A DNA stretch of 64,000 nt, taken from positions 1 to 64,000 of IMG/VR virus record IMGVR_UViG_3300045911_000567; one strand, given 5' to 3'. The notes under the pieces were generated by a model. That model was not told where the DNA came from. It saw only the letters and a list, made by a program, of their open reading frames with translations, and searched no databases. The translations under genes and the position numbers were made by a program. Positions 1-46,418 of this stretch are shown piece after piece. This DNA comes from a virus. Within the stretch, counting starts at the first letter, position 1; every line of letters begins with the position of its first letter.

Positions 1-249
1 GATCTCTCTCATGCGAATCTGTCTTATACTGTTCTGAGTCGTGCAGATCTGTCTCAGGCTAATCTGTTTTGTGTCACTCTAACTGGCGCAAGACTTCGCT
101 ATGCAAACCTGTCTTGCGCGAATCTGGCTGACGCAGATTTGTCAAAAGTCGATCTTTCTGGCGCTGATCTGACCGATGCCGATTTTTCTCGCACGATTTT
201 GTCTGGAGCTAAAATTATCAACCACAACTTAGAACTGGAACTTGCATGA
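1..249 (+). CDS. pentapeptide-repeat protein, 5' end cut by window edge
   Basis: The frame is open from the first base and reads as tandem A(D/N)LxX pentapeptides until a short tail NLELELA and a TGA stop. Such repeats fold into a right-handed quadrilateral beta helix; some family members mimic DNA and bind gyrase, but no function can be assigned here. The next gene starts inside its stop codon (ATGA) and ends in nearly the same tail, so the two look like duplicated, translationally coupled paralogues. The N-terminus lies outside the window. Confidence 0.8.
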   Translation, partial: DLSHANLSYTVLSRADLSQANLFCVTLTGARLRYANLSCANLADADLSKVDLSGADLTDADFSRTILSGAKIINHNLELELA

Positions 250-608
250 AAATTGTCATCAAAGATAGAACTGGAAAAAATCTCTTCGAAACAGAAGCAG
301 ACAGCGTTAAAGCTGCTGTCGAGCAAGCTGTTAGGCAAAAGGTTTCTTTGGCTGGGGCAGATCTGTCTGGAGCGTATCTGGTTGCAGTCCAATTGGCTGG
401 CGCAGATCTGTCTGGAGCGAATCTATACGCAGCAAATCTTTTGCGAGCTTGTCTGGTTGGAGCAGATCTGTCCGGAGCGTATCTGGTTGCAGTCCAATTG
501 GCTGGCGCAGATCTGACCGGAACAAATCTGACTGAAACAGTTCTAGCCAGAACAATCTTCACCGGAGCTAGAATCGTAGACGGCGATTTAGAACTTGAAC
601 TGGCATGA
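246..608 (+). CDS. pentapeptide-repeat protein
   Basis: 120 aa. Residues 1 to about 35 form a non-repetitive cap (MKIVIKDRTGK...), followed by about 13 pentapeptides of the type GADLS/GANLY, then DLELELA. The cap plus repeats is a common layout for phage and bacterial pentapeptide proteins. The ATG overlaps the upstream stop as ATGA, which fixes the start. A 55-bp DNA segment inside it is duplicated at a 105-bp spacing (seven pentapeptides), showing recent internal expansion. Function unknown; a beta-helix scaffold or DNA-mimic role is only possible by family analogy. Confidence 0.8.
   Translation: MKIVIKDRTGKNLFETEADSVKAAVEQAVRQKVSLAGADLSGAYLVAVQLAGADLSGANLYAANLLRACLVGADLSGAYLVAVQLAGADLTGTNLTETVLARTIFTGARIVDGDLELELA
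357..516 (+). repeat. 55-bp direct repeat within pentapeptide gene
   Basis: Copies at 357-411 and 462-516 differ at one base (tct/tcc) and lie 105 bp apart, an exact multiple of 15 bp, so the duplication keeps the pentapeptide register. Confidence 0.85.
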
Positions 609-4888: not shown

Positions 4889-5169
4889 CAGACGTCTCCA
4901 TTTTCTATAGATTTTATCACTTCATATGGTGTAATAGCAGTCCTATAAAATTCCTGCTTACAACATTCTAGCATACCTATGATTGCATTATAGTCTTCGT
5001 AGCGCAAATTATTTCCTGTTGCCTTTCTGTATGTATCTTTGATTAGCTTGGTCAGAATGAAATTTAAATTTCCTGGAATTTCATTTTTCGGCGATTGTGA
5101 TACGCTATCAGATAATTGATTCACTGAGTCGAGAAAGGGTTCTCTATTTTCTTTTCTTATATACGGCAT
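4888..5169 (-). CDS. DUF6899-like phage protein
   Basis: 93 aa from MPYIRKENRE. The pattern MPYI..E.R..F, GNLNFILTKLI, YRKATG, RYEDYNAIIGMLECCKQEFYRT..PYE is the one I associate with a small helical protein common in tailed phages (DUF6899), function unknown. Of three candidate ATGs, the one at 5169 has GGAG six bases upstream and gives the usual MPYI start. Overlaps the end of the upstream gene by 26 bp. Confidence 0.65.
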   Translation of the reverse strand: MPYIRKENREPFLDSVNQLSDSVSQSPKNEIPGNLNFILTKLIKDTYRKATGNNLRYEDYNAIIGMLECCKQEFYRTAITPYEVIKSIENGDV

Positions 5170-5836
5170 CATCGTCTCCATAATTATCTTTCAATGCTTC
5201 ACAGATATAATCGGCAATCGTCTTTTTTGCAGAATAGATATTTTTACTAGGCAGTCCTAGTCTATCCAACATCATTCTGGAATAATAAGTTGCCGATTCT
5301 TTGCCAGCAAAATCAACCGACTCAAACGTAAAGCTGCGGTGATTTTTCATTTTGGTGTAGTAATCGCCGATAGCGTTAGCTTTCCATTTGCCTATTACAA
5401 CTTCTACACCCAGTCCTGGATACCTTCCAGAGGCGGTTCCTAACAATACTGCGGTGTCACTATTATAAGATTTAAACAAGACTGAATCTTGATCATATTT
5501 TTTCCCTGCTTTGAATAGAAAATCTTTCAGTTTACCTGTTGATTCTGGATTGGCAGCAATCAAAAACGATTTTTCAGCAACAGGCCTCTTGTTTCCTTTT
5601 CCGTCATCCTCGATATAGTATCCAGCTACAGGAACAAATCCAAATCCTGCTGACCGAATGTCATTCGCGAGTGCTTTAGTATTAAATTCGTTGCGCCTCT
5701 TTGCTTCTTCTGCTGTCTCGGTATCTTTCTTTCCTCTCGAAGCAGAAATCATTCCTATACTCTTTTCTTGAGTATATTGGTACATCCTTGCCAGATTTAT
5801 TTCATTCAGTAAATGTTTTTTAAATTTCTTGAGCAT
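5144..5836 (-). CDS. late conserved phage protein with capsid-targeting-like N-terminus (DUF3293-like?)
   Basis: 230 aa from ATG 5836 (a TTG two codons upstream is less likely). The N-terminus MLKKFKKHLLNE resembles the capsid-targeting peptide of T4 internal proteins, with a possible prohead-protease cut after LNE. The middle (DIRSAGFGFVPVAGYY, EKSFLIA) recalls DUF3293-type proteins, seen in many phages without known function. A late-promoter-like AATAAATA lies 33 bp upstream inside the preceding gene. Inference: a virion or internal head protein. Confidence 0.5.
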   Translation of the reverse strand: MLKKFKKHLLNEINLARMYQYTQEKSIGMISASRGKKDTETAEEAKRRNEFNTKALANDIRSAGFGFVPVAGYYIEDDGKGNKRPVAEKSFLIAANPESTGKLKDFLFKAGKKYDQDSVLFKSYNSDTAVLLGTASGRYPGLGVEVVIGKWKANAIGDYYTKMKNHRSFTFESVDFAGKESATYYSRMMLDRLGLPSKNIYSAKKTIADYICEALKDNYGDDDAVYKKRK

Positions 5837-9660: not shown

Positions 9661-10102
9661 GAAAAGTAGATATAAGCCGTTAAACTACAAAAAATACATA
9701 GGCAATCCAGCTAACATATACTATAGATCAAGCTGGGAGTTTGCCGTCATGAGATATTTAGATACATCCTCGACGGTTGAACTCTGGTCCTCTGAAGAAT
9801 TTACAGTAAAATACCTATGTCCTACCGATAACCGCCTACATACATATTATATTGATTTTTTCGTAAAATTTTCTAATGGCACATCATGGCTCATTGAGCT
9901 AAAACCTAAAAATCAGGTAGAAAAACCCAAAAAAACCAAACGGAAAAGAGAGAAAACATATTTGACTGAAGTAAAAACATATCTCAAAAATCAGGCTAAA
10001 TGGTCAGCGGCACATCACTATGCAGAAAAGCAGGGTTGGAAATTTGTCATTTGGACCGAAGATACTCTAAAAAAGTTAGGTATATTGGTGATAAATAGCT
10101 AA
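9659..10102 (+). CDS. 4: head completion protein gp4 (gp50), TnsA-like nuclease fold
   Basis: 147 aa, like T4 gp4 (150 aa). KYIGNPANIYYRSSWEFAVM at the N-terminus, then YYIDFFVKF and WLIELKPKNQ match T4 gp4. The D and ExK residues fit a TnsA/PD-(D/E)XK-type active site. In T4 it completes DNA-filled heads before tail joining. Start fixed by similarity up to residue 3. The ATG overlaps the divergent gp48-type ATG; TAATG couples it to the next gene. Confidence 0.85.
   Translation: MKSRYKPLNYKKYIGNPANIYYRSSWEFAVMRYLDTSSTVELWSSEEFTVKYLCPTDNRLHTYYIDFFVKFSNGTSWLIELKPKNQVEKPKKTKRKREKTYLTEVKTYLKNQAKWSAAHHYAEKQGWKFVIWTEDTLKKLGILVINS
9755..9762 (-). promoter_or_regulatory. candidate late promoter TCTAAATA for the gp48-gp53-hub operon
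   Basis: Minus-strand octamer inside gp4, 94 bp upstream of the gp48-type ATG at 9660, mirroring the plus-strand octamer at 9577. Confidence 0.5.
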
Positions 10103-19497: not shown

Positions 19498-20376
19498 TCA
19501 CGTCAACTTTTTATGATCGTCTAATGCTTTTTTTAAGACTTTAATCTCAGATTTGGATATTTCTCCATCGGAAATTATTTTATTGACAGTTTTCAATAGT
19601 TTAAGATAATGGTATTTTTCAAGAAGTTTATAAATTACATTTCCAGGAAGATAACTATTAGTTCCGTATGTTCTTATTTCTTCGGGTGTCAAAGTTTTAT
19701 TATATGCATCTTCGCGTTTGGTCTTTATGTCATCATAAATCGCACTAATTTCTTCTGCATTTAGTTCCATATCTTCGATTGTCTGCTTTAACCTCTGTTT
19801 CAGTTGTCTTGCATCTGCATCGGTCATATTTTTTATGGACTCGTAATCGAATAAAACATCATCTAATCGATCTGCAAGTAAATCGATTGCTTTAACTTTG
19901 TCGGCGTAATCTTGTAAATATAACTCTATCGAAAATTTTATATCTTTCGGTTTTTTGATAAACTCGTTATTTTTAATATCAAAAGATGCGTCAGCGGCTT
20001 CTGTTTTTCTTCTTTCATATTCTTTTGCATCATTCATAATAAAATAGTTAATGGGATAGGGCGTATTTTTATATTTTTTCCCTGATATTTTAGAAGTTAT
20101 TTTTTTACTCTTCTCTAAGTCTTTTTCGGCTACAAGAACCGTGACATCTATATCACTATTTTCATCATATCTAAGAGTTAATATACTTCCAAGAAGTACA
20201 TAGTCAAGTACCTTAACTTCAGCTACCAGCGGAGCCATTCTTTTAAGAATTTCATCACGTAAGTCGTCTTTTAATTTTGGATTAACCGCATTGGGGTCTT
20301 CGAATATATCAGGCGAAAGACTATCTTGCCTTTGACTTATTATAGACTCTTCGATGTAAGTACTAAATCGTTTCAT
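19498..20376 (-). CDS. nucleotidyltransferase-like protein with capsid-targeting-like N-terminus
   Basis: 292 aa from ATG 20376, which has CCGGA 5 bp upstream; the frame runs 20 codons further to a GTG but without support. N-terminus MKRFSTYIEE resembles the T4 internal-protein targeting peptide (possible cut after IEE). LLGSILTLRYDENSDIDVTVLV (residues 61-82) is the pol-beta nucleotidyltransferase signature: GS at 63-64, D75 and D77. The rest is helical. A late-promoter-like GCTAAATA lies 16 bp upstream. The substrate is unknown. Confidence 0.6.
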   Translation of the reverse strand: MKRFSTYIEESIISQRQDSLSPDIFEDPNAVNPKLKDDLRDEILKRMAPLVAEVKVLDYVLLGSILTLRYDENSDIDVTVLVAEKDLEKSKKITSKISGKKYKNTPYPINYFIMNDAKEYERRKTEAADASFDIKNNEFIKKPKDIKFSIELYLQDYADKVKAIDLLADRLDDVLFDYESIKNMTDADARQLKQRLKQTIEDMELNAEEISAIYDDIKTKREDAYNKTLTPEEIRTYGTNSYLPGNVIYKLLEKYHYLKLLKTVNKIISDGEISKSEIKVLKKALDDHKKLT

Positions 20377-20392: not shown

Positions 20393-20400
20393 TATTTAGC
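20393..20400 (-). promoter_or_regulatory. candidate late promoter GCTAAATA
   Basis: Minus-strand octamer 16 bp upstream of ATG 20376, leaving a leader just long enough for its CCGGA ribosome site. Confidence 0.5.
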
Positions 20401-38255: not shown

Positions 38256-39014
38256 TTATCTTTCTAGCAAATAATCTTTAAATTTCTTTTTAGGAAGTTT
38301 CTTAACTATCGGTTCTTGCAAACCAGCAACGCCGCCGGCGCCTACTGAATTAGCAGGAATATCTTCTTCAACTTTTTTGAGTCTTGTATAATAATCCGGC
38401 TTTTCTTTCAGGTGTGCCAGCACTATTTTGGCTAAATCTTCTTTTGTATTCGCTACACGAAGTTCTGGATCTGTGCTATGTTCTTGTTCAACCTCCAGCC
38501 CTTGTCTAAATTGATTCAAATCGACTTTGGTCCAATCCACGCCCAATCTATTGCCTATTTCCTGTGCTTCCTGCTTTGAAATTTTTTCTATCTTTTCTTC
38601 AAGTAGTGCTAAATGATTAAGAGCAGAAATATTTTCTTGTAGTAGTTGCAGTTGATTTGTAAAACTGGAATATAATAGATCAATGTCTTCATATTTTTCG
38701 AGATTATTCTCTTCTTTCAGCAAAAATAGTGCGGCGGCGAAATTTGCAAGACGAGTCCTGCCAGCCGGTAGTTTAGATATGATTTTCTTGAGGTTGAGAA
38801 TTATCACATCAAAAATAGTAAATGATAATTTTTCTTCGCTTTTGGTGAGAGTGCTGCGTTTTCTGAGTATATTTCCTTCGGCATCTATAATACCAAATTT
38901 ATATGCCTTCCAATTCGAAAAAGGCGTAGCAAGTCGTTTTATAAACTGATAAATCAAAAAAGAATCGAATACAACCGACTCGTTAATTAATTCCGATTTG
39001 AGTTTATTCCTCAT
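38256..39014 (-). CDS. conserved T4-type protein with DUF5661-like domain and possible capsid-targeting N-terminus
   Basis: 252 aa. N-terminus MRNKLKSELINES could be cut after INE. Residues 15-110 (FDSFLIYQFIKRLATPFSNWKAYKFGIIDAEGNIL, then LPAGRTRLANFAAALFLLKE) are a pattern from marine T4-like phages. Residues about 155-215 (DWTKVDLNQFRQGLEVEQEHS, AKIVLAHLKEKPDYYTRLKKVEE) match DUF5661. Ends in KKFKDYLLER. Function unknown; a virion protein is likely. Confidence 0.65.
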   Translation of the reverse strand: MRNKLKSELINESVVFDSFLIYQFIKRLATPFSNWKAYKFGIIDAEGNILRKRSTLTKSEEKLSFTIFDVIILNLKKIISKLPAGRTRLANFAAALFLLKEENNLEKYEDIDLLYSSFTNQLQLLQENISALNHLALLEEKIEKISKQEAQEIGNRLGVDWTKVDLNQFRQGLEVEQEHSTDPELRVANTKEDLAKIVLAHLKEKPDYYTRLKKVEEDIPANSVGAGGVAGLQEPIVKKLPKKKFKDYLLER

Positions 39015-39427
39015 TAGATTTGCCTCAGTGCAGCAGCAATTTTCATGTCTATGGGTATATCACTACTAATAATTGGTTTATCGTCTATTCCATAAATTAC
39101 CGAAGGCATATAATTTAGAAAAACCAAAAAAGTCTTTAGCTGCACCCAGAACTTTTTGTTCACTTTATAAAACAAAATTTTGGTTGCGGCTTCTGGACCA
39201 AAGACATTATAAAGCACAATGATATGATTTAGAATCAATCTCTCTTTCAGTTCGCCGTCCATAACATAACGATTCAATAGTCGTTTGATGTATTTAATTC
39301 TGGTCAGATCATCATGAAATTCTTTAATATCAAGACAGCCAGGATTATTGTATGCCTTCATCGCATACATCATGAAACTATCTTCTGTTAGACACTCAAA
39401 TCTTGGATCGAATCCCATAGCAAACAT
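39014..39427 (-). CDS. DUF7207-like conserved T4-type protein
   Basis: 137 aa. CLTEDSFMMYAMKAYNNPGC, KYIKRLLNRY, LILNHIIVLYNVFGPEAATKILFYKV and FLVFLNYMPS form a helical pattern conserved in T4-like phages (DUF7207), with no known function. TAATG overlap with the next gene. Its position among late genes suggests a virion or assembly role. Confidence 0.65.
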   Translation of the reverse strand: MFAMGFDPRFECLTEDSFMMYAMKAYNNPGCLDIKEFHDDLTRIKYIKRLLNRYVMDGELKERLILNHIIVLYNVFGPEAATKILFYKVNKKFWVQLKTFLVFLNYMPSVIYGIDDKPIISSDIPIDMKIAAALRQI

Positions 39428-39434
39428 TTATTGC

Positions 39435-40256
39435 TTACGGAACTACTCTGGTTCCAGCTCCTTGTGCCAACGCAGCCGTAATAGTCAATATCGCCGATTG
39501 TGCTGTATTTGCAGTTCTAACAATTGTACCAGAGATTGACTGTGCATCAATTGATAGTTCTGCGCTTTCGGCAGGAACGGTTCCTGCAAAAACAACTTCA
39601 GTTGTGTTCAATTGCTGCGATGCTGTTAGAATTATTGGACCTAGTGTTCCATCTGTAGTGAGTTGCAAAGTTGCTCCTGCCGAAGCATCGACCTCCTCAC
39701 TAAATGTAACTGCTACGCTCACAGGATCGTTTTGTTGCAAGGATGCTTGTACGAATTGAACATCTTCGATAGAAACTTCGACTAACGGTATTATCCTGGT
39801 TCCAGCTGCCGTAATTGCAGATACAGGAACAACCAAGTTAGTAGCAGTATTGTCGGTTGCATCTTGAATTGCTCCTGTTAAGGGAGATGTTACAGCTAAT
39901 GTTACTTCTTCGCTTTCTAGTGGAACTGTTCCACTAAATACTGCCTCGTTCGTATTCAGTTGCTGTAGGGCGGTTAATGTAATTGGACCTAAAGGACCTG
40001 TGTTCGACAATGTTAAAGTTGCTCCAGCAGGAACATTAACCCTTTCATTGAATCTAACGGTTACAGAGATTGGATCTCCTTGTGCATATGATGTTGCATC
40101 GAAAGCTACTGATAATACATCGCCAGGACCAGCTTTTGTTGTGAGCTTTCCTATGGCAACGAAGATTTCTCCGGTGTCAGGATCGACCCACCCCTGATCT
40201 GTTGCTACTGCGTTTGGTGCAAATGCTGGTGGTCCGTTTAAAGTCCATAATGGCAT
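39435..40256 (-). CDS. virion protein with two Ig-like domains, possible head decoration
   Basis: 273 aa. An N-terminal domain (MPLWTLNGPPAFAPNAVATDQGWVDPDTGEI...) of a type found in T4-like structural proteins is followed by two repeats of about 95 aa (VSVTVRFNERVNVPAGATLTL / VSVAVTFSEEVDASAGATLQL) typical of bacterial Ig-like adhesion domains. Almost no Cys or Lys in the repeats. A late-promoter-like GATAAATA lies 39 bp upstream. Probably exposed on the capsid or tail and glycan-binding. Confidence 0.65.
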   Translation of the reverse strand: MPLWTLNGPPAFAPNAVATDQGWVDPDTGEIFVAIGKLTTKAGPGDVLSVAFDATSYAQGDPISVTVRFNERVNVPAGATLTLSNTGPLGPITLTALQQLNTNEAVFSGTVPLESEEVTLAVTSPLTGAIQDATDNTATNLVVPVSAITAAGTRIIPLVEVSIEDVQFVQASLQQNDPVSVAVTFSEEVDASAGATLQLTTDGTLGPIILTASQQLNTTEVVFAGTVPAESAELSIDAQSISGTIVRTANTAQSAILTITAALAQGAGTRVVP

Positions 40257-40272
40257 GGTATGTTACTCCTGA

Positions 40273-40830
40273 TTAAAATCCTAATTTTCTTAACTTATTT
40301 ATCACTTCCGATGCCGATGTCCTTTGTATTGCTAGACCGCCGGCTGTTCTCCATTCATTGCAATTCTTATCGTAATCATCTATCAGTAGGTTTGGTTCGC
40401 CCTTGACATTTTTTGCAAATAACTGTTTTTGTGAGCGAGAAACCAAATGAATATTATCTACATTATTTATTCCAAGATGATCCTTAACCCATTGAAGTTT
40501 GTCGCGTTCGCAAATGTCTCTATTCATTGAAGTTGTTGCACTCAAGATGTTTGGTTTGTATTTTTTGACTGCTTCCCATAATTTTTTGCCGTCTCTTAAC
40601 CATCTCAAAGTCTGCCAAAAGTTTGGTTGTTGATATATGATTGACCAGCGAATATCATTAGCTTCGGTTTCGGAATATTCCTTAAGCCAAAATGAATGAT
40701 GAAATTTCGGATAACCAAATTTTTCTAAAATTTGATCTGCGCCTCTAGTAAAATCAACCAAGGTTTCGTCTAAATCCAGATATATTGTGGGCAAAGATTT
40801 GTCAATAATATAAGATTTCAAACTTTTCAT
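40273..40830 (-). CDS. HAD-superfamily phosphatase, 5'(3')-nucleotidase-like
   Basis: 185 aa. Motif I YLDLDETLVDF (residues about 17-27, nucleophile and acid Asp), motif II SATTS, and motif IV LLIDDYDKN give a complete HAD active site. The cap is small and helical as in deoxyribonucleotidases. The N-terminus MKSLKSYIIDKS resembles the targeting peptide of neighbouring genes but has Asp where a prohead-protease Glu is expected. Confidence 0.7.
   Translation of the reverse strand: MKSLKSYIIDKSLPTIYLDLDETLVDFTRGADQILEKFGYPKFHHSFWLKEYSETEANDIRWSIIYQQPNFWQTLRWLRDGKKLWEAVKKYKPNILSATTSMNRDICERDKLQWVKDHLGINNVDNIHLVSRSQKQLFAKNVKGEPNLLIDDYDKNCNEWRTAGGLAIQRTSASEVINKLRKLGF
40296..40303 (-). promoter_or_regulatory. 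candidate late promoter GATAAATA
   Basis: Minus-strand octamer 39 bp upstream of the Ig-like gene; an AGGAG ribosome site follows. Confidence 0.5.
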
Positions 40831-40844
40831 TATCTTAAATCAAA

Positions 40845-41444
40845 CTAATCTCTGTCATTTCCTTTGAATTGAGGCTGCTCATGCGGAAGATCGCCCATAG
40901 CATCAATTAATAAAGGAAGTAGAACAGATTCATAATTTTCATACACACTTAATATATCATATAGATCCTCTTTTCTCTTTGCTCCCGGAAGGTGAGGCGC
41001 AGGAATTATTTCAGGCATTCCTGTAGCATATGTCACTAGTGCTCTATAGGCTGTTCTTTCTGAATCGGGTCTAATATCGTCCGCTGCTCGTTGTGTCAAA
41101 TCTATATCGGAAATAATGTCGATGTGTTTCGGTAGATTCCTATCTCTCATTGTCACAGCAGATGCCGGTTCTTTGGAAGCGACCTGACACGATTCATTTA
41201 CTGATGCTAGTTCGGATTCTTTTTCCTGTTCTGACTCAAGCTGCTCGTTTTCTTCTGCCTCATCTTTTGCTTCGGTTTCTCCTAGTGTAGGTAAGCCAGA
41301 ATGGGCTGCGGTTTTTTTTGCTTTGCTAGTGCAGTCACACCCTTGTTCGTGCACAGTGCACGTTTGTTCGGATAAACTTTTGTTCAATATACTGGAAACC
41401 GCATCAATTAATGATTGTGATATACCTAAATCTTTGAATGACAT
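40845..41444 (-). CDS. late acidic protein, unknown
   Basis: 199 aa. MSFKDLGISQSLIDAVSSIL start, a Cys/acidic middle (CDCTSK, EAEENEQLESEQEKESELA), and a C-terminal part (DLYDILSVYENYESVLLPLLIDAM). The short N-terminal helix followed by an acidic linker is seen in several marine T4-like phage proteins of unknown role. AGGAG ribosome site and ACTAAATA 24 bp upstream of ATG. Possibly a scaffold or core protein. Confidence 0.55.
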   Translation of the reverse strand: MSFKDLGISQSLIDAVSSILNKSLSEQTCTVHEQGCDCTSKAKKTAAHSGLPTLGETEAKDEAEENEQLESEQEKESELASVNESCQVASKEPASAVTMRDRNLPKHIDIISDIDLTQRAADDIRPDSERTAYRALVTYATGMPEIIPAPHLPGAKRKEDLYDILSVYENYESVLLPLLIDAMGDLPHEQPQFKGNDRD

Positions 41445-41468
41445 ATTTCTCTCCTTGCAGTAGTATAT

Positions 41469-41476
41469 TATTTAGT
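41469..41476 (-). promoter_or_regulatory. candidate late promoter ACTAAATA
   Basis: Minus-strand octamer 24 bp upstream of ATG 41444. Confidence 0.55.
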
Positions 41477-41480
41477 TATT

Positions 41481-41681
41481 TTAATCATCTGGCGATTTTT
41501 TCTTAGATTTATAATCGGTTTGATAAAATCCCGATCCCTTGAAAATTGGGGCAGATACGACTGAAAGAACTTTAGCTATCTCAGATTGACAATACGGACA
41601 ATTTTTGATCGCGGCGTCTGAGATTTTTTGCTGTATCTCAAGAATTCCACAGGACTTACATTCGTATTCATATAACGGCAT
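41481..41681 (-). CDS. FmdB-type zinc-ribbon protein
   Basis: 66 aa from ATG 41681 (MPLYEYECKSCG); a GTG four codons upstream is less typical for the family. CKSC and CPYC pairs form the zinc ribbon, followed by APIFKGSGFYQTDYK, a standard FmdB ending. A second FmdB-type gene is at 22195. Role in phage unknown. Confidence 0.75.
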   Translation of the reverse strand: MPLYEYECKSCGILEIQQKISDAAIKNCPYCQSEIAKVLSVVSAPIFKGSGFYQTDYKSKKKSPDD

Positions 41682-41689
41682 ATTGTCAC

Positions 41690-42115
41690 TCACATCACTT
41701 TTTTGACGGATCCGTTCGGTAGATAATGATATACTGCAACTTTTTGATTGAATCTTAATGCTTTCCTAATATTATTAGCTTTCATCACCGCACCAAGTTT
41801 CGTTTTTTCTTTTTCTGAAAAGAGTTGCTTTCCTCCTGCATCGTATACCACAACCACGAACAGATCGGATTGTTCTTGTACTACACTACCTAATTGTTCT
41901 GGATCGGCTTGCTCATTTGCTCTCTTCTCTGCATCTTTTCGTGCTTGATCCTGCTTGCGCTGTGCTTCTTTGGCGGCGAAATCTGCTCGTCGAGCTTGTT
42001 CTATCTCTCGGGTGTGTTTTTTTTGTAGTTGTTCTTTCTCTCGTTTCTGACGTTCCCGTACTTTTTGAGCTTGGGACTCAAACTCTTCTTGTAAGTATTT
42101 TCTAAATCGTTTCAT
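41690..42115 (-). CDS. coiled-coil protein with capsid-targeting-like N-terminus
   Basis: 141 aa. MKRFRKYLQEE fits the targeting-peptide pattern with a possible cut after LQE. Residues 12-75 are a very charged Ala/Lys/Glu/Arg helix (KKHTREIEQARRADFAAKEAQRK), then a small beta domain (LFVVVVYDAGGKQLF, KVAVYHYLPNGSVKKVM). A late-promoter-like TCTAAATA lies 57 bp upstream within the preceding gene. Candidate internal head protein. Confidence 0.6.
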   Translation of the reverse strand: MKRFRKYLQEEFESQAQKVRERQKREKEQLQKKHTREIEQARRADFAAKEAQRKQDQARKDAEKRANEQADPEQLGSVVQEQSDLFVVVVYDAGGKQLFSEKEKTKLGAVMKANNIRKALRFNQKVAVYHYLPNGSVKKVM

Positions 42116-43112
42116 AAATTTTTTTTCTAGTGCTATAACGAGATTTCTTTGCTAGATTCAATAATTCTCTTATATTTAGAGAAACGACATGAGCTATAAC
42201 TTTTTGTTTTTCATCTATATTTCTGAGTGCAAATAGTTGATGATGACCATCCAGAATATAATCATCTGACGAAACTACAAACGGCTTTTTAGCATCTGGA
42301 TGTTTTTTGAAATGCTCATATTTCTGTTTAACTTTTTGTAGATTTATTTCTGATTGAGTTGGCTTCAATTTGTCCAGTCGAATGTATTTTTTCGAGACTA
42401 AAATGCCCTGTTCTTTCAGTTCATCCAAAAAAGAGGATATGTCCCTCTCCGCAATCTGTGGCATCTCATTTCTGGTAAAACCTAATCCTTTTATTTTATG
42501 AATAATAGACTCGGCGATTTTCATACTCTTTTTCAATTCGTCGAACATTTCTCTGGCAAATCTTTCTGATAGACCAGATAGAGTCATCGAATAAAATGAT
42601 GCAAAATCATTTCGTTTGACTGCATCTCGCACTCTGGAAGCCGAAAACCCTTCCACTCCTTCGGCATCGGGATCTCTCAAACCAGCCGAGATAACCGCAA
42701 AATTTTTAATCGGCAGTCTTTTACTCTTATCTGGATGGTTTATGTATTTCTTTATCAAAGTATCGAATTCGGATACTCTATCGGCTCCAACTACCATCAC
42801 CAAATTTGCGTAGCCAATTGAATGTAGATATTGTATCACATCGAAGATTGTTTTGATTTGACTATTTGCTACGATATATTTCTTATGATTCGAAATTCCC
42901 ATAGCCAGATATTTTATTTTCTGTTGATATGATAGGGGATTCTTTCTAATATCTTGAGTCTGACTTAAAAAAATAAATGGTGTGGCATTTTCTTTTCTGG
43001 AAACCAACAGCATATTTTCAATAACTTTCTCATGTCCTCTATGAGGAGGATTCATTCTACCGAAGGTAAATACTGCTTTTTTACCCGATAAAATTTCACT
43101 TAAAAATTTCAT
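42102..43112 (-). CDS. NMNAT/cytidylyltransferase-like protein fused to ParB/sulfiredoxin-like domain
   Basis: 336 aa. Residues 12-165 are a nucleotidylyl transferase: FTFGRMNPPHRGH has the HxGH-type site (24-27), and GFSASRVRDA matches the ISxTxVR motif. Residues about 225-320 look like a ParB/Srx domain: IRLDKLKPTQSE, then VSSDDYILDGHHQLFALR with the DGxHR-type core (288-292). The first domain would transfer a nucleotide to NMN or a similar phosphate; the second binds or cuts nucleotides in relatives. N-terminus MKFLSE may be a weak targeting peptide. Confidence 0.7.
   Translation of the reverse strand: MKFLSEILSGKKAVFTFGRMNPPHRGHEKVIENMLLVSRKENATPFIFLSQTQDIRKNPLSYQQKIKYLAMGISNHKKYIVANSQIKTIFDVIQYLHSIGYANLVMVVGADRVSEFDTLIKKYINHPDKSKRLPIKNFAVISAGLRDPDAEGVEGFSASRVRDAVKRNDFASFYSMTLSGLSERFAREMFDELKKSMKIAESIIHKIKGLGFTRNEMPQIAERDISSFLDELKEQGILVSKKYIRLDKLKPTQSEINLQKVKQKYEHFKKHPDAKKPFVVSSDDYILDGHHQLFALRNIDEKQKVIAHVVSLNIRELLNLAKKSRYSTRKKIYETI
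42173..42180 (-). promoter_or_regulatory. candidate late promoter TCTAAATA
   Basis: Minus-strand octamer 57 bp upstream of ATG 42115, inside the end of the NMNAT-like gene. Confidence 0.4.
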
Positions 43113-43114
43113 TA

Positions 43115-43657
43115 TTAATCTTTTACTATCGCGTCGTAATAGTTATGTCTTAGTTCGTGTTTTAGTAGATCGCTGTCTCTGATAATATCTCGTAAAACTA
43201 ATTCAGCATCGCCGTTCTGGAGAGAAAATAGTAAAATTTTATTCGAATCTTTAGTTTGTTTAAGCATCTTGTTTATTGTTGAAAGGTCGAATCCATATTC
43301 TCTCAACTTATCTTTCTTGATTGCAGGAAGATTGGGATAAATTTTTACAGATTCTTTGAGTGAAACATCATTGGACTCGGAGAAACTCGCCGATGCTAAA
43401 TCTGATACATTATATAATATATGAGATGGTTCAACGCCGTGCGATTTTACTATATGTTCTACTGCGGCTCTCAACGAAGAAAATCTTTCATTCTTATTGG
43501 TTACATAACGTCCCGATGGTCTGTGGTATGCTACTGCACCAACACGGGCTTTATTAACGTAAACTGCTGCAAATGCAACAGAACGATTTGATGCCAGCCT
43601 TTCTAGTTTGACCACTGCACCTGACGACTCTTTAAGGTATGTGTTAAATTTTTTCAT
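43115..43657 (-). CDS. putative internal head protein, unknown
   Basis: 180 aa. MKKFNTYLKES gives a targeting-peptide match with a possible cut after LKE. The first half is beta-rich (VAFAAVYVNKARVGAVAYHRPSGRYV), the second helical. No known family. ACTAAATA ends 6 bp before the ATG, and its TAA is the stop of the upstream SprT-like gene. Confidence 0.55.
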   Translation of the reverse strand: MKKFNTYLKESSGAVVKLERLASNRSVAFAAVYVNKARVGAVAYHRPSGRYVTNKNERFSSLRAAVEHIVKSHGVEPSHILYNVSDLASASFSESNDVSLKESVKIYPNLPAIKKDKLREYGFDLSTINKMLKQTKDSNKILLFSLQNGDAELVLRDIIRDSDLLKHELRHNYYDAIVKD

Positions 43658-43663
43658 ATACTA

Positions 43664-43671
43664 TATTTAGT
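43664..43671 (-). promoter_or_regulatory. candidate late promoter ACTAAATA
   Basis: Minus-strand octamer 6 bp before ATG 43657; contains the stop codon of the SprT-like gene. Confidence 0.5.
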
Positions 43672-44398
43672 TTGCTTGTTGCTTATATAAAACTTTGCTT
43701 ATTTTACCTAAATCTTCAATATTCGACGTTTTTGTGTCGTAGTTTGCCACAGTTTTATATGACCACTTCATATTAACTTTAAATCTATGGTGTAACTTAG
43801 TATCAATAACAACAATCATGCCTTCTTTTAGTTTAGGAATAACCTTGCCAGATGTAAATAAATTTATGTGCTCAGAAGCGGGCTGCATGATTTCATTTTG
43901 TTTAGATAAAGGAAATAATGCTATAAAGTAATTGTCTATGTTCTCTTTTCTATAAATGAAGGCAATCATTGTTTTACTTGGAAGATGGTCATATTCATCG
44001 GGGTGGCCTGTATGATCTATTGGAATATCCATCCCTAGTTTTTGACTAAACTCTTTTCTATATTTCTGAAATACAGGACCATGCATACCATAATCACTAA
44101 TGCTATTTTTAGCGATAAAGGCATGTATCATTTCATGAGCCACAATCTTAGTCAAAGTTTCTTCTGTAAAATTCAGGGGAGCGATCACGATTTCGATTGT
44201 TTCAGGCAAAACAACTCTGCTCTGTTTGTATATTTTATATGTAGTCAATCCCATTTGTTGTTTAGGAAGTTTACCGAATTTGATAGGGATTTCTTTGAGG
44301 GCACCATTAAAAAGTTTAGCATCAAGCTCTCGGTAAATCTTCTGAAGAGTAGCATTATCTTGGACTTTTTCTGTTATGAATTGCTTGAATTTTTTCAT
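43667..44398 (-). CDS. SprT-like zinc metalloprotease with capsid-targeting-like N-terminus
   Basis: 243 aa. MKKFKQFITEK matches the targeting peptide, possible cut after ITE. LFNGALKEIPIKFGKL and IVAHEMIHAFIAKN (H88, E89, H92), then GMHGPVF (H106 as third zinc ligand) give the SprT/SPRTN protease site. A C-terminal small beta domain follows. If packaged, it would enter the host with the DNA and could cleave DNA-bound or chromatin-like host proteins. ACTAAATA lies 7 bp before the ATG, which also overlaps the upstream stop (ATGA). Confidence 0.75.
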   Translation of the reverse strand: MKKFKQFITEKVQDNATLQKIYRELDAKLFNGALKEIPIKFGKLPKQQMGLTTYKIYKQSRVVLPETIEIVIAPLNFTEETLTKIVAHEMIHAFIAKNSISDYGMHGPVFQKYRKEFSQKLGMDIPIDHTGHPDEYDHLPSKTMIAFIYRKENIDNYFIALFPLSKQNEIMQPASEHINLFTSGKVIPKLKEGMIVVIDTKLHHRFKVNMKWSYKTVANYDTKTSNIEDLGKISKVLYKQQAN

Positions 44399-46401
44399 AA
44401 TAGTCTATTTAGTACCTCTGGTACTGCCAAACCTTCGTTTCTTAGTGCTTCATCTGTTCCTTTTAGGATAGATTTAACCGCCTCTGGATAGATAAAATCT
44501 GGAGACAACACCGCCGAGAGAACTTTTTCGAATACCAGTAAATCTGAAGGAGAAAATTTAGGACCAAATAATAATTCTGTTATGATTTTTGGTGTAGTAG
44601 ATATGAAAGCCGACGATTTTGTCTGAAAATTTTTTGTTATGCCTCTTTTACCTTCTCTGGACTGGGTGGAAAAGAATAATCCCTTAGAATAATCTAATAG
44701 TAAGCGCTGTTGCTCAATTGGCTGTCCAGAATTTGATTTTGTTATTCTGAGTGCCACAAACTTTGCTATTTGATTCAATAATATATTTCTATAAATTCCT
44801 TTAAATTCACTTTCTGATGTTGCCGGACCATAATAAATCCATTCGCTATAATCCAAATTATTAACTAACATCAAATCAACCTGTACCGATTTATTGTGTT
44901 GTTTTTTATTTATGTTTACAATCGGAAATGCGAAAGACACGATTCCAAGACCTCTACTATCTTTAACAGAAGCAGAAATTCGTTTAATCTTAGAAACAAC
45001 AAAATCAAACAACTCTTCTCTATTAAAGGATTTTGTACTCAAAATAGATTTAGCTGATATTGCTATGTCGATGTCACCAGAAGATTCTCCTGGCAATTTT
45101 TTTCCCGCCGAACCCAGTACCCTGAGATCGCTTTTTTCTATATTTAAAACAGAAGAAACGGCGGATATGGCTGCTTTTATCGTCTCGGCTGCATTCTCTT
45201 GATCTAATCGCGAGACTCCTATTATTGCGTTTCCTCCTTCATTGAGTGAGGCATGGAAAGAAAAATTCAGTCGAGAGAATTCAAGTCTATCCACCAATTT
45301 TATCACACGACCAGATCTGCTATTAAGAGCAACAAAACCTTCCTGTCCCGTAACTCTGAAACCATCGCCGGTTTGAATGAAGGTGCTCATAGAAGATATT
45401 TGATTTAATTTTTTAAGAATGATCGATTTTAGTTCTACTATGTAAAGTTGATATTTTAACAACTCTACCAAACTTGATTGATTATCAACGAGAAATTTTA
45501 TATGTCTTTCTTTTCCGTATGCAGACCTATACTTTGATGAAACATACTCAATCAGGCCAGGAATATCGGAAACTGTCATTTGCTTGCCCGTTCTCACTAA
45601 TATATTGCTATACGCCTTGACGTGGGTAGATATAGGAGAGTTAGATAATTCATCTGCGAATGACCGGATACTTTTTAGTGATTGTTTTGCCTTTTCTATT
45701 AATGAATTTAAATACGAAATTTCGGTTTTATTAAATTGAACGCCGGAACTTACATTTTTTAATGTTGCATCGTCAAACCAAACATCTTTTATTTTTTTCA
45801 GTTTGGTTATATCAGGGCTGAAGCTGGCTTTCATTTTGCTCATCTCGGAACCCTTATATTCGGTGTGCCATACTATTCCCAACTGGGCAGAGAGTATGTC
45901 TTTTGCTAAGGGACTGTTGAGTGGAACGCCATACGTTAGGGTATTTGGTTTAAATAGCACCATTTCTTGACCATCTATTGAGTCCAGAAAAAGACTACTT
46001 TTAGTGAAGATTACATCACCCTGTAGGACCCCTTTTATTCCCAGAGCCGGAAGAGTTGCCAGAGCAATTTTTAATATCTCTTGTACCCTGTCACTATTAG
46101 CATGATTTAACTCTATATCTTTTGGCGTAAAATTCAATTTTGGATTATTAGATAAAACAGCTTTTGTTCCAACAAAAAATTTCTTTGTTTTGGGATCAAT
46201 TCCGGCAAAGATAGCAAGGGAGCCATCCCATTTAGTTGTAATCTTCGAATCAGAAACAGATCCCTCTAAATTTTTAATGATATCTGATAGAACATCGAGA
46301 GCATATTTTCCTCCTCGGGCACCATCATTAATGATGTAGTCCTCTACATGCTCAATGTGGGTATTTTTTGCTTCCGAGATGTATTGAAAAAACTTTTTCA
46401 T
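44395..46401 (-). CDS. DUF6267-like protein: RNA-ligase-like domain fused to pol-beta-type nucleotidyltransferase
   Basis: 668 aa. MKKFFQYISEA is the best targeting-peptide match, cut expected after ISE. KNTHIEHVEDYIINDG, TTKWDGSLAIFAG (KxDGS, K57), GVLQGDVIF and VLFKPNTLTYGVP resemble DUF6267 proteins of marine T4-like phages and the ligase/capping nucleotidyltransferase core. From 428, VLGSAGKKLPGESSGDIDIAI (G430-S431, D443, D445) and VQVDLMLV (D509) form a pol-beta nucleotidyltransferase site. Predicted to modify RNA or nucleotides, perhaps after injection. Confidence 0.7.
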   Translation of the reverse strand: MKKFFQYISEAKNTHIEHVEDYIINDGARGGKYALDVLSDIIKNLEGSVSDSKITTKWDGSLAIFAGIDPKTKKFFVGTKAVLSNNPKLNFTPKDIELNHANSDRVQEILKIALATLPALGIKGVLQGDVIFTKSSLFLDSIDGQEMVLFKPNTLTYGVPLNSPLAKDILSAQLGIVWHTEYKGSEMSKMKASFSPDITKLKKIKDVWFDDATLKNVSSGVQFNKTEISYLNSLIEKAKQSLKSIRSFADELSNSPISTHVKAYSNILVRTGKQMTVSDIPGLIEYVSSKYRSAYGKERHIKFLVDNQSSLVELLKYQLYIVELKSIILKKLNQISSMSTFIQTGDGFRVTGQEGFVALNSRSGRVIKLVDRLEFSRLNFSFHASLNEGGNAIIGVSRLDQENAAETIKAAISAVSSVLNIEKSDLRVLGSAGKKLPGESSGDIDIAISAKSILSTKSFNREELFDFVVSKIKRISASVKDSRGLGIVSFAFPIVNINKKQHNKSVQVDLMLVNNLDYSEWIYYGPATSESEFKGIYRNILLNQIAKFVALRITKSNSGQPIEQQRLLLDYSKGLFFSTQSREGKRGITKNFQTKSSAFISTTPKIITELLFGPKFSPSDLLVFEKVLSAVLSPDFIYPEAVKSILKGTDEALRNEGLAVPEVLNRLL
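44406..44413 (-). promoter_or_regulatory. candidate late promoter ACTAAATA
   Basis: Minus-strand octamer 7 bp before ATG 44398, inside the last codons of the upstream gene. Confidence 0.5.
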
Positions 46402-46410
46402 ATAACATAT

Positions 46411-46418
46411 TATTTAGT
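46411..46418 (-). promoter_or_regulatory. candidate late promoter ACTAAATA
   Basis: Minus-strand octamer 9 bp before ATG 46401 in the short gap after the helicase gene. Confidence 0.55.

Follow-up and report, generated by a model that had tools for sequence, protein, structure and literature searches.

The DNA analysed here (the window) comprises bases 1 to 64,000 of an IMG/VR virus record of 76,913 bases, IMGVR_UViG_3300045911_000567. Five genes in it, all on the minus strand (starts at 46401, 44398, 43657, 42115, and 20376), encode proteins that share an N-terminal decapeptide resembling the capsid-targeting sequence (CTS) of the phage T4 internal proteins. Four of the five form one cluster adjoining gp41. 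The window has T4-type replication genes, and gp22 and gp23 lie at the end of the record (L001). The closest cultured gp23, at 60.8% identity, comes from Methylophilales phage Melnitz, which is filed under Kyanoviridae, as are cyanophages. The source is predicted to be a T4-like phage from water, Kyanoviridae-like in type. The tagged genes, their upstream elements, and the weaker members are listed in Table 1.

Table 1. Features of the window; a slash marks the predicted cut behind the tag.
Feature	Position	Strand	Basis or remark
Putative capsid-targeting peptide MKKFFQYISE	46372..46401	-	Translation, permutation test
CTS gene 1: MKKFFQYISE/A + DUF6267 + C-terminal half with Pol-beta-like motifs (GS..DID..D)	44395..46401	-	Translation, Pfam
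CTS gene 2: MKKFKQFITE/K + SprT-like metallopeptidase (HEMIH)	43667..44398	-	Pfam PF10263, E=3.5e-9
CTS gene 3: MKKFNTYLKE/S + domain without recognised family, HELRH near C-terminus	43115..43657	-	Translation, Pfam
CTS gene 4: MKRFRKYLQE/E + highly charged protein, no family	41690..42115	-	No late element
CTS gene 5: MKRFSTYIEE/S + Pol-beta superfamily nucleotidyltransferase	19498..20376	-	Pfam, homologues
CTAAATA, 9 nt before ATG of CTS gene 1	46411..46417	-
CTAAATA, 7 nt before ATG of CTS gene 2	44406..44412	-
CTAAATA, 6 nt before ATG of CTS gene 3	43664..43670	-
CTAAATA, 16 nt before ATG of CTS gene 5	20393..20399	-
Degenerate CTS MLKKFKKHLLNE + S-adenosylmethionine (SAM) lyase/hydrolase (predicted)	5144..5836	-	Pfam PF23780, homology
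Cytidylyltransferase/NMNAT-like + ParB-like protein	42102..43112	-	N-terminus MKFLSE shortened, fails motif
NT5C/HAD nucleotidase, MKSLKSYIID	40273..40830	-	Leu4 + Asp10, fails motif
DUF5661 protein	38256..39014	-	N-terminus MRNKLKSELINE does not fit

The DUF6267 part of CTS gene 1 matched PF19782 (E=4e-91, residues 13-382). Its KxDG, EGxV, and K motifs (K45, D47, G48, E342, G343, V345, and K356) are invariant in 23 homologues and likewise in an alignment of 9, and these residues correspond to those predicted for ligase-type (covalent) nucleotidyltransferases. The structure model was confident (predicted local distance difference test score, pLDDT, 85.5); a fold search with it gave no PDB match at E<=0.001, with ligases frequent among the weak matches. 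A PDB sequence search gave no match for DUF6267 or the SAM lyase. The C-terminal half of CTS gene 1 matched DNA_pol_B_palm weakly (E=0.14). HELRH, a zincin-like motif, lies just 9 residues from the C-terminus of the CTS gene 3 product, and this protein may therefore be a truncated metallopeptidase. CTS gene 5 matched PF18765 at E=2e-4, below the family cut-off; 37 further viral contigs contain homologues of it, several of which have a CTS. In many marine contigs (L035-L038, L041-L046, L048, and L051-L054), an open stretch, about 230 codons long in most of them, precedes the Pol-beta nucleotidyltransferase in the same frame, and the junction retains the last residues of the tag (FKES, KLNES). 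When the DUF6267, SprT, cytidylyltransferase, and SAM lyase genes were each searched singly against IMG/VR, few relatives were returned.

The internal proteins IPI, IPII, and IPIII of T4 carry the tag MKTYQEFIAE (Mullaney and Black, 1996, reviewed in PMC9026906). For IPIII, experiments using truncation and suppression mapped targeting to residues 4 and 7, and cleavage to residues 8 and 10 (PMC9026906). The functional pattern was defined as an aromatic residue at 4 and 7, a hydrophobic residue at 8, and Glu at 10. An earlier note on the window, made from the sequence alone, had proposed a T4-type capsid-targeting peptide on a suite of unrelated enzymes, quoted nine N-termini, and suggested a search of the rest of the genome. 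All nine were found on the minus strand where it had placed them. The search gave the full pattern in 5 of the 104 genes of the record, against 0.054 expected, and none of 20,000 column permutations reached five. F4 and F/Y7 occur in all five genes, as does the (L/I)xE cut site, with I/L at 8 and E at 10. The peptides that the note had ranked lower, at 43112, 39014, and 40830, are indeed weaker and fail the pattern; the one at 5836 is degenerate. In a related 145 kb record (G001), the same test gave 4 observed against 0.02 expected (0/20,000 permutations). The six tagged genes of G001 include two that encode J-domain-like proteins and a Pol-beta nucleotidyltransferase beginning MKTYLEFISE, which differs from the T4 tag at positions 5 and 9 only.

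Between the five tagged genes, the DNA matches at 17-23 of 30 nt in the tag codons and at 5-13 of 30 nt just behind them; the similarity is thus restricted to the tag. Pfam and PHROG assignments of the bodies also differ, in agreement with the note's statement that the downstream domains are unrelated. Tag codons 57-77% identical at the DNA level could reflect short 5' cassettes (late promoter plus gene start) copied without functional meaning, or chance. Either is highly improbable, since positions 4, 7, 8, and 10 are conserved over many contigs, on unrelated domains, while 5, 6, and 9 vary, and since five was never reached in the permutations.

A late-type element lies within 32 nt upstream of 4/5 tagged genes, in each case CTAAATA, versus 4/99 others with any late-type element (p=7e-5; 104-gene record). 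The gp22 and gp23 genes of the record carry the late element TATAAATA, and GATAAATA stands directly before the start of a gp2-like end-protector gene (10102). NATAAATA is the late promoter reported in cyanophage S-PM2 (PMC2984593). Counted alone in the window, CTAAATA showed no excess (16 versus 17.6 expected); only its position relative to the tagged genes was significant, not its number. Among the IMG/VR matches listed from the scan described below, a late element within 32 nt was present at 50/114 tagged starts versus 130/992 other starts on the same contigs (p=8e-14). From these elements, the tagged genes are predicted to be expressed late. In several tagged genes of the window and G001, and in the gp2-like gene at 10102, 5-9 nt separate the end of the element from the ATG. 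This spacing leaves almost no 5' leader, and nearly leaderless late mRNAs would result.

The IMG/VR scan was performed with a DNA pattern for MKTFxxF[ILM]xE and did not use the window sequence. All counts from it refer to the matches listed. In the loci read first, 84 sites were found, of which 79 coincide with the start of an open frame, and 109/120 contigs encode relatives of T4-like-phage proteins. Pfam searches of 70 tagged proteins identified SAM lyase (6), DUF6267 (4), cytidylyltransferase-like (4), and DUF5661 (3) families, with single members of the HD, GNAT, HNH, HicA, and Cpn10 families. These families are largely the same as those of the window and were recovered without its sequence. 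Residue 11 lies outside the pattern, yet was Ala or Ser in 47/75 distinct proteins (63%), against a background of 12.9% of all genes (p=1e-23; like the other p-values, this overstates independence because counted sequences from one family are related by descent). The excess fits a gp21 protease cut after Glu10. When the tag was trimmed from the query, it was still present at 27/38 distinct SAM lyase N-termini and 45/73 DUF6267 N-termini. Three SAM lyases (L225, L237, and L287) have the tag without ATG and with other sequence before it (GKTFEQFMVE), possibly an internal tag. Other tagged proteins (L114, L136, L151, L102, and L112) resemble, by eye or by Pfam, relatives of ADP-ribosyltransferase, RelA/SpoT-type HD, and APH-kinase proteins.

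Regarding the protease, gp21 was present in 5/5 cultured relatives searched, and gp23 of the record has the cleavage site LLTE/AVP, which we take, by comparison with T4 gp23, to be a T4-type site.

Virion proteomics of cultured relatives bears directly on packaging. Among the 52 virion proteins of cyanophage S-CREM2 are a SAM hydrolase, an APH/ChoK-like kinase, a cytidylyltransferase, and a Cas9-like nuclease (PMC10665884). In the S-CREM2 genome, the first three begin MKDFDSFLEE, VKRFDAFLTEE, and MKNFSSFLTEA, respectively; they are the only genes with the strict motif genome-wide, and all three are virion proteins (3/3, p=0.012). A looser fit was seen in two other virion proteins, the Cas9-like protein (RFASFMAEA, near residue 18) and gp13, a small protein (MKDLHSFLTEQ). 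The Cas9-like S-CREM2 gp12 (L071:7704-10313) and S-CRM01 g128 (L378:2922-3145), found in the same place, have a common SRW..W start and then a tag-like stretch about 18 residues in (RFASFMAEA and LSLDSFIKEA). The sole virion enzyme of S-SZBM1, a cytidylyltransferase (PMC9146016), starts MRFRQFIIEA, and the virion NMNAT of S-SCSM1 (PMC9602691) starts MKSFLQFLKEA. The S-CRM01 kinase, a virion protein according to the S-CREM2 paper, starts MISFDQFLSEK. For the tagged virion homologues of S-CREM2, S-SZBM1, and S-SCSM1, the text consulted does not report ends cut at the Glu. Word searches of the S-CREM2 paper (PMC10665884) gave no mention of an N-terminal tag, and the term 'N-terminal' does not occur in it; searches of the open-licence literature likewise gave no description of the tag for cyanophages. 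Since similarly tagged enzymes have been found in purified cyanophage particles, the tag probably marks proteins injected into the host at the start of infection.

These data also bear on two other functions for the N-terminus. It might be an address elsewhere (host membrane, replication complex, or tail) or a translation-enhancing leader with no relation to the capsid. The clustering beside gp41 would suit such a role, and initiation can benefit from Lys codons behind the start. However, the pattern positions coincide with those that determine targeting and cleavage in T4, Ala/Ser follows the Glu, tagged enzymes occur in virions, and the genes at 19498 and 5144 lie far from the cluster, which together leave this explanation very unlikely. 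A second possibility, also unlikely though less so, is that the tag targets the prohead core and the proteins serve head assembly only, in a scaffold-like manner, with no role after injection. The role of T4 IPIII, head assembly versus host take-over, was left open in PMC9026906, and the tagged proteins include small ones and ones in which no domain was recognised (41690; L103). Most of the recognisable cargo, however, consists of soluble enzymes with intact motifs (SprT HExxH, SAM lyase, cytidylyltransferase, and kinase) that have no obvious scaffolding use, and the cargo differs between phages.

Several observations, in addition to the shared ancestry mentioned above, weigh against a T4-type CTS. 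A peptidase S77 (gp21) search of the 76.9 kb record found nothing. T4 gene order places gp21 just upstream of gp22, and the record ends next to gp22 at this expected site, so the absence of gp21 is uninformative about the phage. Residue 11 in the five tagged genes of the window phage (A, K, S, E, and S) is only partly among the preferred small residues. No strict tag was found in pelagiphage HTVC008M, and the Pol-beta nucleotidyltransferase homologues L055-L057 are without a tag though the Glu is kept. These cases suggest that the tag has been gained and lost, or takes other forms; L055-L057 also indicate that Glu10 alone is not diagnostic. S-SZBM1_191 is small and has a perfect tag, and is not in the S-SZBM1 mass spectrometry list. 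The looser motif adds S-CREM2 gene 17943, which was undetected in the virion. The S-CREM2 authors left open whether the virion-associated enzymes are cargo or carry-over (PMC10665884). With these points weighed, we assign a probability of about 0.82 to the shared N-terminus being a T4-type CTS, with prohead docking, gp21 cleavage after Glu10, and delivery with the DNA. The statistics, late promoters, residue 11, and virion proteomics of relatives strongly support the core proposal of the earlier note, a T4-type capsid-targeting peptide on a suite of unrelated enzymes. For the window phage itself, docking on the core, cutting by gp21, injection, and what each cargo does are predictions.

The suite listed in that note stands in part. 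The five genes with the full motif belong to it; the NMNAT/ParB (43112), HAD (40830), and DUF5661 (39014) proteins fail the motif in the window phage, and their families have tagged relatives elsewhere. The note had also counted the 5836 protein without naming its enzyme. In its N-terminus, MLKKFKKHLLNE, His replaces the second aromatic residue and there is one extra residue. The gene matched PF23780 at 43.5 bits, above the curated cut-off of 28, and the protein is 33% identical (E=1e-11) to S-CREM2 gp6, the virion SAM hydrolase. Its homologues carry the full tag, e.g. MKTFQEFMVE. The gene at 5144-5836 is thus annotated as a predicted SAM lyase, by analogy the best-supported candidate for injected cargo. 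Relatives of the cytidylyltransferase/ParB protein in other phages are fully tagged, e.g. L106 (MKTFNKFLTEAKDKGAVFSFGRFNPP). L129, a protein similar to the HAD nucleotidase, starts MKTFLEFITE (MKTFLEFITEAPV...IYLDMDET). In T4, Asp10 stops cleavage yet targeting still works (PMC9026906), so the HAD nucleotidase at 40830 might be packaged uncut. The C-terminus of the DUF5661 protein, KKKFKDYLLER, is tag-like. A C-terminal version of the tag was counted near expectation in seven genomes; with no enrichment, this end is left as a curiosity. At the left end of the window (218-562), an open frame of SAPANWTATRYAPDRSAPTR-type repeats is probably a DNA repeat.

A T4-type CTS would imply the following course. 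Late in infection, gp55-type late promoters, a few of them with a start nearly at the AUG, would drive synthesis of the tagged proteins. The tag, chiefly through its residues 4 and 7, would dock these proteins onto the prohead scaffold core; gp21 would cut after Glu10 and free the mature proteins within the head, from which they would pass into the next host along with the DNA. There the cargo would act ahead of phage gene expression; it would consist of SAM lyase, ligase-like and Pol-beta nucleotidyltransferases, and SprT protease, joined in relatives by cytidylyltransferase, kinase, and others. Its likely roles would be to block methylation-dependent restriction or other defence and to reprogram host metabolism. 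A SAM lyase delivered early would use up SAM, on which methyltransferases and some restriction systems depend as a cofactor; the S-CREM2 authors likewise propose protection from restriction (PMC10665884).

On balance, we lean towards viewing the T4 tag as a portable address which, throughout the T4-like phages of water, marks out an arsenal of enzymes for injection. The arsenal would plausibly comprise SAM lyases, ligase-like enzymes, nucleotidyltransferases, kinases, RelA/SpoT-type HD, GNAT, and J-domain proteins, and perhaps Cas9-like proteins, a list we favour with similar reserve. If so, the first ten residues alone would predict which unannotated marine phage proteins are delivered into hosts, and many hypothetical genes of marine T4-like phages would become candidates for injected effectors, among them SAM lyases that could overcome restriction even before phage genes are first read. 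Cyanophage proteomics cannot tell cargo from contamination; a tag shared with T4 would supply a mechanism and a prediction rule.

The window proteins share with T4 IPI-IPIII the decapeptide with aromatics at 4 and 7, a hydrophobic residue at 8, and Glu at 10, as well as predicted late expression and unrelated bodies. They differ in that the cargo consists of recognisable enzymes, whereas that of T4 consists of small basic proteins; in addition, the window phage is Kyanoviridae-like rather than T-even, and residue 3 is K/R where T4 has T. One leader on non-homologous bodies is also known from the T4 anti-GmrSD proteins Ip1-Ip3, which are injected at the start of infection (PMC12373910), but no homology to them was seen in the bodies of the window proteins. 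The window SAM lyase and cytidylyltransferase are homologous to virion enzymes of S-CREM2, where the SAM hydrolase, kinase, and cytidylyltransferase carry the full N-terminal tag and packaging was reported without a mechanism (PMC10665884). Pol-beta nucleotidyltransferase, metallopeptidase, and ParB-like domains also occur in polyvalent proteins, which are predicted to be injected with the DNA (Iyer et al., 2017, PMC5512222). Unlike polyvalent proteins, with many domains per polypeptide, the window proteins mostly have one or two domains and a tag each; two domains are found in those at 42102 (cytidylyltransferase and ParB) and 44395 (DUF6267 and Pol-beta-like), and one in the others. T4 Alt and DarA/DarB of phage P1 are likewise head proteins delivered with the DNA, and they use different targeting signals. 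Set against these systems, the window phage has a known kind of tag with a new and wide set of cargo.

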